A DNA stretch of 64,000 nucleotides, taken from the NCBI RefSeq assembly GCF_003697815.1, contig NZ_RDQG01000006.1, forward strand, positions 1 through 64,000, given 5' to 3'. Positions 41,954 through 43,469 of this stretch are shown in pieces. The position numbers were made by a program, and so were the translations under genes. Each line of letters starts with the position of its first letter. The stretch's first letter is position 1. This stretch comes from Halalkalicoccus subterraneus. Its GTDB lineage: Archaea; Halobacteriota; Halobacteria; Halobacteriales; Halalkalicoccaceae. The notes under the pieces are model-generated. The model searched no databases and was not told where the DNA came from. It saw only the letters and a list, made by a program, of their open reading frames with translations.

Positions 41954-42004
41954 GTGCTCAGAACAATGTAAAGCGTTTTGGGCGCGCGCCCGGTAGAGGG
42001 ACGT

Positions 42005-42493
42005 ATGTGGAAGCGCCTGCTGGCGGTGTTGCTGATCGTCCCCCTCGTCGACGCGATCTTCCTGATCGTGGTCGCCGATTGGCTCTCGTGGCCAGTGACG
42101 GTGCTGCTCGTCGTGCTGACGGCGCTGTTGGGAACGCTGTTCGTCCGCGCGGAGGGCCGACACACCGTCCGGCGCTTCCAGCGGGCACTCTCCGAGGGCC
42201 GGGCGCCGACCGACGAGTTGCTCGACGGCGGCTTTCTGATCGCGGCGGGCGCACTGTTGCTCACGCCCGGACTCGTCACGGACGCCATCGGTTTCCTGTT
42301 CGTGCTGCCGCCGAGCCGCTACGCCCTGCGGGGGCTCGTAAAGCGATACGTGGTCCGCCCCTATCTCGAGAAAAAAACGGGCGGGTTCGTCAGCGGGGCC
42401 GTCTACACGAACGGTTTTCCCGACGCCGAGGACGACGACACCGTCGACATCGGCTCGGACAGTTACGACGTCCACGAGGGCGAGGGATCGTAG
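42005..42493 (+). CDS. fxsA: FxsA-family membrane protein
   Basis: A 162-residue protein with three or four membrane helices and the FxsA core: VPLVDAIFLIVVADWLSWP ... ALLGTLFVRAEGR ... DGGFLIAAGALLLTPGLVTDAIGFLFVLPPSR. The C-terminal 50 residues are acidic and soluble. In E. coli FxsA over-production relieves phage T7 exclusion by the F plasmid, but the cellular role is unknown. It lies just upstream of tRNA-Ile on the same strand, with the tRNA promoter in between. Confidence 0.9.
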   Translation: MWKRLLAVLLIVPLVDAIFLIVVADWLSWPVTVLLVVLTALLGTLFVRAEGRHTVRRFQRALSEGRAPTDELLDGGFLIAAGALLLTPGLVTDAIGFLFVLPPSRYALRGLVKRYVVRPYLEKKTGGFVSGAVYTNGFPDAEDDDTVDIGSDSYDVHEGEGS

Positions 42494-42541: not shown

Positions 42542-42615
42542 GGGCCGATAGCTCAGTCAGGTTGAGCGCTCGGCTGATAACCGGGAGGTCCGCGGTTCAA
42601 ATCCGTGTCGGCCCA
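42542..42615 (+). tRNA. tRNA-Ile (anticodon GAT)
   Basis: A complete cloverleaf: acceptor stem GGGCCGA/TCGGCCC with discriminator A, D-arm GCTC/GAGC, anticodon stem CTCGG/CCGGG enclosing CTGATAA with GAT at 34-36, and T-arm CGCGG/CCGTG around TTCAAAT. There is no intron and CCA is not encoded. The last 22 nt are repeated exactly downstream at 42687-42708. Confidence 0.95.
42594..42615 (+). repeat. tRNA-Ile 3' end, first copy of a 22-nt direct repeat
   Basis: This is the T-loop to discriminator segment of the tRNA. It is identical to 42687-42708, 71 nt away, and the shared 12-nt core TTCAAATCCGTG also occurs inverted at 42649-42660. Confidence 0.85.
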
Positions 42616-42648
42616 CTGTCTCTGTCACTCGACAGGGCGGTTACGCCG

Positions 42649-42660
42649 CACGGATTTGAA
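42649..42660 (-). repeat. Inverted 12-nt copy of the tRNA-Ile T-arm core
   Basis: CACGGATTTGAA is the exact reverse complement of the core TTCAAATCCGTG found in both direct copies. With the second direct copy it can form a 12-bp stem. Confidence 0.7.
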
Positions 42661-42686
42661 TCAGGGAGCAGTTCGTCTGCGACCGT

Positions 42687-42708
42687 GGTTCAAATCCGTG
42701 TCGGCCCA
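42687..42708 (+). repeat. Second copy of the tRNA-Ile 3' end (possible attachment-site remnant)
   Basis: An exact 22-nt duplicate of the tRNA 3' end, outside any gene. Duplicated tRNA 3' ends are the usual product of integrase-mediated insertion into a tRNA gene. Here no integrase or element remains; the spacer is only 71 nt. Confidence 0.6.
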
Positions 42709-42824
42709 TCCCGATCCCACCGGCCGACGGCCGAGGGGAAATCCGGGATCATGCCTCCCCAGCCACCCAATCTTTCGTGGTTTCGTTCACCAACAGCGTC
42801 CGACTTCGCGTCTAGTAGTTGTGT

Positions 42825-43469
42825 TCATTCCGAGCGAGCAGGTGCACCGTCTCGACAGCACGGGATAAGCGACTCCATCGCCCGTCTCTGATCGTCAAAC
42901 GACATACTTGCCGGTACCGACCCGCCGCTCGTGGCGGAACCAGTCGTCCCGTTCCTCGCCGCCTCCGCGGGTGTGTATGGAAGGTGGACGAACCCCGCCG
43001 GGAGGTTGGTGTGGTGGCGGACGGTGTAGAGCGCGCGATTACAACAGTGCGTTCCGGCGGTGTTCGATACCCGGGCGGGGATCCCCGCTTCGAGGAGGGT
43101 CTCGACACAGTCGACGACCGGGACGTTCGCGAAGTACGCGTCGGGTCCCTCGGGGACGATCCGCTCGTCGTGTGGCGTCGATCCTGCGTTGTCGGAGGTC
43201 GCGCCGGCGTCGGCGACGTTGATCGCGACGCGTTCGACACTGATCGCGCTCCGACCGGCGGCGAGCCCCGCCGAAAGCACTCTATCGGGACGCACCTCGT
43301 CGATCGCATCGAGGAGTTCGTTCTCGACACGCGCGAACTCGACGGGCAGGACGCGTCCGACCACGTCTTCTCCGTCGACCGTCTCCCCGTTGAAGTGGGT
43401 TGCGAGGCGCTCGCTAGGGTTGGTTTCGTGCTCGGCGAAGGGTTCGTAACCGGTCAGAAGCACCGTCAT
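42825..43469 (-). CDS. pcp: Pyrrolidone-carboxylate (pyroglutamyl) peptidase
   Basis: A 214-residue cysteine peptidase that removes N-terminal pyroglutamate from peptides. The catalytic triad is E79 (SVERVAINV), C143 (SNTAGTHCCN) and H162 (FVHLPYTP), with the opening GYEPF motif. The length is normal. It converges on tRNA-Ile across a gene-free 209-nt segment that holds the tRNA 3'-end duplication, so it sits beside a possible integration site. Confidence 0.93.
   Translation of the reverse strand: MTVLLTGYEPFAEHETNPSERLATHFNGETVDGEDVVGRVLPVEFARVENELLDAIDEVRPDRVLSAGLAAGRSAISVERVAINVADAGATSDNAGSTPHDERIVPEGPDAYFANVPVVDCVETLLEAGIPARVSNTAGTHCCNRALYTVRHHTNLPAGFVHLPYTPAEAARNGTTGSATSGGSVPASMSFDDQRRAMESLIPCCRDGAPARSE

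Follow-up and report, generated by a model that had tools for sequence, protein, structure and literature searches.

The tRNA-Ile(GAT) gene in the window, by which we mean the whole stretch of 64,000 nucleotides analysed here (Halalkalicoccus subterraneus, GCF_003697815.1, contig NZ_RDQG01000006.1), is followed closely by a second copy of its own 3′ end, and the question raised by this locus is how that copy came to be there. The first-pass annotation had proposed an integration scar, with the intervening DNA as an excised or collapsed tyrosine-integrase element. The repeats are as it described them: the last 22 nt of the gene occur again exactly at 42687–42708, with 71 nt between the copies, and the inverted 12-mer CACGGATTTGAA is exact at 42649–42660. 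With one mismatch, the direct repeat extends to 26 nt (42590–42615 and 42683–42708), and the inverted copy is likewise longer than 12 nt, reading GCCG-CACGGATTTGAA from 42645, one base short relative to the tRNA end and paired in the fold. When ATTCAAATCCGTG was sought with up to two mismatches, there were three matches in the 64 kb, all at the tRNA-Ile locus, where 0.63 were expected, and 2 of 100 shuffles also gave three. The 69-nt hairpin, in which the inverted copy pairs with the second direct copy, folds at −25.6 kcal/mol with DNA parameters versus −8.9 for shuffled sequences (z −9.1), and 92 nt of the unit give a fold z of −6.8. Within the window, the Rfam gathering score is reached by the tRNA alone. 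The features are collected in Table 1, including the pcp gene next to the site, whose identification is borne out by a PF01470 match.

Table 1. Features of the tRNA-Ile locus (positions in the window) and three larger integrase elements used for comparison
Feature	Position or locus	Strand	Evidence or detail
FxsA gene	41978–42493	+	
tRNA-Ile(GAT), the unit's anchor	42542–42615 or –42616	+	Rfam RF00005, 66.4 bits (to 42615); ARAGORN (to 42616)
Source of the duplication: tRNA nt ~53–73 (T-loop, 3′ T-stem strand, 3′ acceptor strand, discriminator)	42595–42615	+	
Whole inserted unit, 93 bp	42616–42708	+	empty/occupied alignment; G002 locus 99% identical
Hairpin 1 (CTCTGTC/GACAGGG)	42620–42637	+	DNA fold and RNA fold
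Left arm, inverted copy of the tRNA 3′ end	42645–42660	-	sequence and DNA fold
Tip, type A (TCAGGGA-GCAG/CTGC-GACCGTG)	42661–42687	+	genome pattern counts and covariation
Right arm, last 22 nt of tRNA-Ile, exact; pairs with left arm	42687–42708	+	
Native downstream flank, directly behind the tRNA where the unit is absent	42709–42772	+	alignment
Pyroglutamyl peptidase gene	42825–43469	-	PF01470
Integrase element at tRNA-Thr(GGT)	L117 (G259)		far tRNA-end copy 36.8 kb away
Integrase element at tRNA-Thr(GGT)	L118 (G032)		far tRNA-end copy 13.3 kb away
Integrase element at tRNA-Glu(TTC)	L125 (G380)		far tRNA-end copy 51.3 kb away

We searched the 181-bp locus against 59 genomes, namely 58 relatives and the window's own; below, G000 is the window's own genome, G001–G006 are genomes of the same genus, and L numbers are fetched loci. 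Alignment of the tRNA-Ile locus within the genus reveals two states, empty and occupied. In G003, G004, and G005, TCCCGAT or TCTCGAT and a conserved stretch adjoin the tRNA end directly, whereas in the window and in G002 the same stretch comes after the second tRNA-end copy. Because the conserved flank adjoins the second copy in the one case and the tRNA itself in the other, 93 bp are inserted exactly at the tRNA end, and on this alignment 42616–42708 is a precise insertion rather than an excised or collapsed provirus. A spacer common to all relatives, which the first-pass annotation had named as the outcome speaking against a scar, is not what the genus holds: G001 (L082), G003, G004, and G005 have no unit at tRNA-Ile, G002 has the window's unit, and G006 has two other units. 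Of the 29 best-matching tRNA-Ile loci that were fetched, 5 have units and 24 yielded none, in a set that includes one locus with only 106 nt downstream (L034) and in which carriers may rank higher because the query contained the unit.

Other tRNA genes of the genus present a similar picture. At Arg(TCT), G003 is empty and G000 has a unit, and the sequence that follows is recognisably the same. Read by eye, Val(GAC) has a single unit in G000, the counterpart of which stands second in G003 behind a different tRNA-adjacent unit, and G000 and G005 have different units before the same downstream flank. No copies were seen at Val(TAC) of G003. Also by eye, hairpin-1 and tip modules are newly combined in G001 and G004. 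Separately, three contigs of G000 (C14, 9–93; C27, 9335–9419; C59, 23320–23404) start or finish no more than 10 nt from a tRNA-Leu gene, as if the assembly had broken at repeats there.

The unit turned out to be one of many. A segment of the query (42652–42697) matched numerous places besides tRNA-Ile, and those that were fetched lie behind Ser, Met, Lys, Arg, Gly, Leu, Pro, Val, Thr, Asp, and Trp tRNAs, on the tRNA strand. Within the order, 191 of 392 genomes, from 67 of 95 genera, contain a pattern for the type-A hairpin, and the reversed control pattern gave 0 among the matches listed. In a sample of the phylum, the pattern, which represents type-A tips only, was found in 9 of 120 genomes, all of them among the 19 that belong to the window's order, and in 0 of the 101 outside it. 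Every one of 59 distinct type-A hairpins in the fetched loci, a mixed set with some loci fetched via the tRNA query, has a sense tRNA upstream, 57 of them within 352 nt, one at 373 nt, and one at 897 nt.

We also took a census, looking for a copy of each tRNA's final 21 nt (up to five edits allowed) in the 600 nt downstream, with the upstream side as the control. In G000, downstream copies were found at 13 of 48 tRNAs versus 2 of 48 upstream, 7 of the 13 having no more than two edits; two of these 48 tRNAs have fewer than 10 nt downstream, and RF00005 gave 49 tRNAs, so that one was missed. Genome G154 gave copies at 25 of 43 tRNAs versus 2 of 43 upstream, 22 of the 25 with no more than two edits. 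In a mixed set of 218 tRNA loci, biased in that many were picked for the hairpin, copies occur at 119 and two or more at 42. Our search of the open-access literature (subscription papers lay outside it) found no description of tRNA-bound hairpin units, and the hairpin-cassette family behind haloarchaeal tRNA genes is widespread and apparently undescribed. At one locus (L064:9215–10220), two tRNA-Asp genes whose starts are 832 bp apart have almost identical 100-bp units behind them, a pattern that joint duplication of tRNA and unit might give.

Typically, hairpin 1 comes first in a unit, followed by the tRNA 3′ end in imperfect inverted form, then by a tip that varies, and finally by the last ~21 nt of the local tRNA in direct orientation, finishing at the discriminator base. 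Units are mostly about 90–150 bp long, occur singly or in arrays, and lie on the tRNA sense strand. In 74 tRNA-proximal units, the discriminator (nt 73) is identical in 68 and the next base in 37, and at the other boundary nt 52 is identical in 68 and nt 51 in 23; identity inside the direct copy is partly by construction, since the copies were found by it, which does not apply to the 3′ boundary. Coding capacity is small, in that the longest closed ORF among 139 units of 72–184 nt is 48 aa, with a median of 10 and at least 30 aa in 19. Some units of G154 (L176 at Lys(TTT), L189 at Arg(CCG), and L197 at an intron-containing tRNA) have longer stretches with palindromes of their own that are not of the standard unit form.

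The two arms were compared with the local tRNA separately. Scored against the mean of 40 other tRNA ends, the local tRNA is the better match for the left arm in 105 of 139 distinct units and the poorer one in 33, with 1 tie; these units were collected automatically and include a few (L151, L178 unit 2) with no clear left arm. The preference is modest (mean 11.0 versus 10.1 of 16), and when all 43 tRNAs of G154 were ranked, the local one came out best for the left arm in 3 of 44 cases, in a noisy test that slid 13 nt over up to 98 nt. For the right arm in the same genome, the local tRNA comes out first in 36 of 44. Of the eight exceptions, four are tRNA-Met rows that are at least partly labelling artefacts, several sharing one label, while L175 matches a neighbouring tRNA and the last copy at L187 is decayed. 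Non-local arms do occur: in L229 unit 1 the end is that of Leu(TAG), and the arms of L185 unit 3 resemble another arginine tRNA.

At T-loop nt 57 the arms change together, with T-A in 82, C-G in 20, C-A in 7, and T-G in 0 of 109 scorable units, the arm having been chosen by the other positions. When a stated structure was scored on 22 distinct type-A hairpins, 93.5% of the cells were paired; five pairs changed on both sides, which 4 of 500 shuffles reach, and the covariation score was reached by 0 of 500 shuffles, with values above every slid control, although kinship among the sequences weakens these counts. Of 138 units, 121 fold better as the sense strand than as its complement under RNA parameters and 106 under DNA parameters, and tandem mismatches flanked by stems are GA/GA in 32 units, TC/TC in 1, and GG/GG in 1. 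This strand bias, taken together with the GA/GA mismatches, indicates a single strand of tRNA-sense polarity, either RNA or DNA. C(GNA)G loops are unusually stable in DNA. Tip loops have 3 nt in 82 of 127 units and are of this kind in 40 of 127, and these short loops and the lack of wobble at nt 57 point towards DNA, though not decisively. A kink-turn reading of the GA motif was set aside by reasoning from hairpins read by eye, in which the adjoining pairs change together (A-C/G-T to G-C/G-C).

Arrays are polar. Where at least two copies are present, edits are fewer in the first copy than in the last in 27 of 42 arrays, equal in number in 15, and more numerous in 0, and among distinct units the first is better in 24 of 34, equal in 10, and worse in 0. 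This polarity would follow either if new units came in beside the tRNA or if conversion held the nearest copy close to the tRNA sequence; Val(GAC), where G003 has the G000 unit's counterpart in second place, favours entry at the tRNA. Tips are shared between contexts: 19 pairs of units in G154 have a tip similarity of at least 0.8 at tRNAs with different ends, and both type A and another tip type are common to different genera. Identical tandem units are found at L187. The hairpin lying 897 nt from its tRNA (L111:780–1620, tRNA-Lys(CTT)) was considered as the boundary of a larger element, which was rejected by eye, because the unit is interrupted by an insertion that holds a 201-aa transposase-like ORF and has an apparent repeat of GATTCGAAG at its flanks, and the unit's right arm is interrupted by a second palindromic insertion. 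At L011:4200–5950 (minus strand), a third tRNA-Ile end copy with one edit lies 1531 nt behind the tRNA and encloses apparent transposase/IS debris.

The reading that we prefer, to which we give about an even chance of being right, is that the units are short non-coding cassettes which a recombinase or transposase acting in trans inserts at haloarchaeal tRNA 3′ ends, duplicating the end. The unit would fold as a single strand of tRNA-sense polarity and be recognised by this enzyme, which would not be encoded by the cassette. Insertion would take place in DNA, at the tRNA 3′ end, and would leave two copies of that end, and because of this duplication new units would enter beside the tRNA and push the older ones away. 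The direct copy could arise as a target-site duplication, which would best account for the same tip occurring with different local copies, or as a shared recombination core, with a tyrosine recombinase acting on that core as a possible alternative route. PMC8371274 describes one such family, SNJ2, as confined to Halobacteria and as using a site of about 14 bp at the tRNA 3′ end. Neither target-site duplication nor a shared core explains the inverted arm without a correction step, and we suppose that this arm is kept matching by palindrome correction. What is observed is the precise insertion, the duplicated end, the sense orientation, the arrays and their polarity, the modularity, and the local arms; a DNA-level enzyme acting in trans is inferred.

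We looked for the enzyme and for a carrier. Integrase genes are present in 7 of 7 genomes tested. A nearby integrase was rejected as the enzyme, since in four genomes compared by eye the one nearest to a family hairpin is about 10 kb away (G046), with distances above 40 kb in G154, G043, and G032. Host Cas1/casposase was rejected as well, being present in 8 of 20 cassette-bearing genomes and absent from 12. G032, G259, and G380 have both type-A units and integrase genes beside a tRNA that mark larger elements (Table 1). The far tRNA-end copies of these three elements are exact over the 24 nt searched and extend by eye to 43–56 nt, the att copies start in or before the anticodon loop, and there is neither an inverted arm nor a hairpin. 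A viral or plasmid source was rejected. This rests on a search of IMG/VR that covered the tRNA-Ile end and type-A tips only, in which the exact tRNA-Ile 22-mer, the tip core, and the type-A patterns gave 0 stretches, and on a search of plasmids and phages with one array (L050), which gave no match.

Several observations stand against the cassette reading. No enzyme was found in the integrase and Cas1 comparisons, nor any viral, phage, or plasmid copy in the searches made. The left arm matches the local tRNA, which plain target-site duplication leaves unexplained, and non-local arms exist at L185 and L229. Only 7 of the 13 downstream hits in G000 have two edits or fewer. Moreover, identical tandem units could also be obtained by ordinary unequal recombination, and polarity could also come about via conversion by the tRNA.

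The alternative that survives best, although we think it rather unlikely, is a functional trailer RNA. The unit would be co-transcribed with the tRNA and fold as RNA into hairpin 1 and a minihelix-like hairpin 2 that finishes in the tRNA 3′ end, and it would be a stable small RNA or control 3′ processing, with arrays made by ordinary duplication. Several structural observations agree with such an RNA: all 59 type-A hairpins are on the sense strand behind a tRNA, the stems covary, the sense strand folds better and has tandem GA mismatches, RNA parameters separate the strands better than DNA parameters do, and the copy stops at the discriminator base, where mature tRNAs end. Disagreement is found at nt 57, where the mismatches are C-A (7), whereas an RNA stem under selection would be expected to show G-U wobble (0 seen), and in the tips, with their preference for 3-nt loops and C(GNA)G. 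In the window, there is no T-tract between the tRNA and the unit, so that read-through is possible, and an RNA fold of tRNA plus unit keeps the acceptor stem paired and the unit separate, the full cloverleaf not being the MFE structure. Distribution speaks against it as well, in that units are absent from orthologous tRNAs even within one genus and from most of the fetched tRNA-Ile loci (24 of 29, counting L034 with its 106 nt), congeners have different units at the same tRNA, and distal copies decay. At the array loci tested, no Rfam family except tRNA reaches its gathering score. About 6 kb from the array of L057, at L057:3884–4059, there is a strong Rfam match to sot0042 (154.6 bits).

A second alternative, which we regard as improbable, is that the units are self-generated palindromic satellites with no dedicated enzyme and no function. 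Units would be made and shuffled by template switching and slippage at the tRNA's own inverted sequences, and their numbers would grow through homologous recombination at the ~21-nt repeats. Quasi-palindrome correction is a mechanism that makes one arm match the other, and the left arm tracks the right arm as this mechanism would have it; the identical tandem units at L187 and the shuffling of hairpin 1 and tip, with breakpoints that by eye lie near repeated T-loop sequence, are also in keeping with satellites. Such an origin is harder to square with tip families that are common to different tRNAs of one genome and to different genera, which need transfer or common descent, with the strand-specific motifs, or with clean single insertions into empty sites.

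The remnant of an excised or collapsed tyrosine-integrase element is the weakest reading and scarcely credible, because attL × attR excision would leave one copy and not two, and because structured units like this 93-bp one recur as a family, the att copies of the three integrase elements are long and free of hairpins, and the PF00589 profile found no integrase on the window's contig. What it shares with the locus is the tRNA 3′ end directly repeated behind the tRNA at both borders of the 93-bp insert, and archaeal integrases often target tRNA 3′ ends, the SNJ2 att site being given in the relevant part of PMC8371274 as only about 14 bp; unlike an integrase element, however, the insert has no integrase gene and no att copy of 43–56 nt. 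From the scar that was first proposed, we retain the insertion directly behind the tRNA with a duplicated 3′ end and the empty sites in relatives, and we drop the integrase element, as the hairpin between the copies is of a family found behind many tRNAs.

The haloarchaeal units resemble several known systems in part, and the E. coli tyrT repeats, PATEs, mitochondrial hairpin elements, and casposons come nearest. E. coli tyrT repeats (rtT RNA) are ~178 bp and stand in tandem behind one bacterial tRNA, each with a copy of the tRNA 3′ end. The haloarchaeal units are also in tandem behind a tRNA and each have its 3′ end, but by description they are set apart as mostly ~90–150 bp with an inverted arm and a tip, and they are found behind 25 of 43 tRNAs in one genome, with one tip in 67 of 95 genera, rather than at one tRNA. 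Integron attC cassettes form arrays of imperfect hairpins with a shared 3′ core, a strand-specific fold, and polarity towards the primary site. Our units are likewise imperfect hairpins with a shared 3′ core, a better fold on one strand, and polar arrays, but they are too short for ordinary genes, their primary site is a tRNA, and their arms follow the local tRNA; we know of no integron integrase for them. CRISPR arrays show polar growth by repeat duplication. The M. mazei casposon, according to the section of PMC6977970 that describes it, inserts at or near a tRNA 3′ end with a 14-bp target duplication, only 4 bp of which are inside the tRNA. The haloarchaeal units are like the casposon in being inserted at a tRNA 3′ end that is duplicated and like CRISPR in forming polar arrays with a decayed distal repeat, but their duplicated segment comprises ~21 nt within the tRNA, their inserts are palindromic, and 12 of 20 genomes have no Cas1.

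Two further kinds of short element are set apart more simply. PATEs and IS605-type palindromes of haloarchaea are, in the account given in PMC3119063, non-coding, very short, and in some cases strain-specific, and they lack a transposase gene; its passages on PATEs describe near-terminal palindromes with no target duplication and no tRNA link. The units studied here differ by description in being tRNA-bound with ~21-nt duplicated ends. Mitochondrial RHE/DHE are short single or double hairpins, thought to be mobile by a mechanism that PMC2800124 treats as unsettled; they are organellar, and the portion of PMC2800124 that describes them has no anchoring at tRNA 3′ ends with duplicated ends.

A wider form of the cassette reading, which we offer tentatively as possible, is that of a haloarchaeal cassette system not described before, in which tRNA genes would be the primary integration sites and palindromic cassettes of ~100 nt would be handled as folded ssDNA by a shared recombinase, building polar modular arrays like those of integrons and CRISPR but without Cas1 or a cassette-borne integrase. 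A duplicated tRNA end alone is no proof of a provirus scar. If the cassette reading is right, about half of the sampled haloarchaeal genomes (191 of 392, counting one tip type alone) carry tRNA-bound hairpin cassettes, and the cassettes would point to an undiscovered insertion enzyme. They would also provide a natural test case for the rise of polar repeat arrays at tRNA ends, a step that is discussed for the origin of CRISPR repeats.
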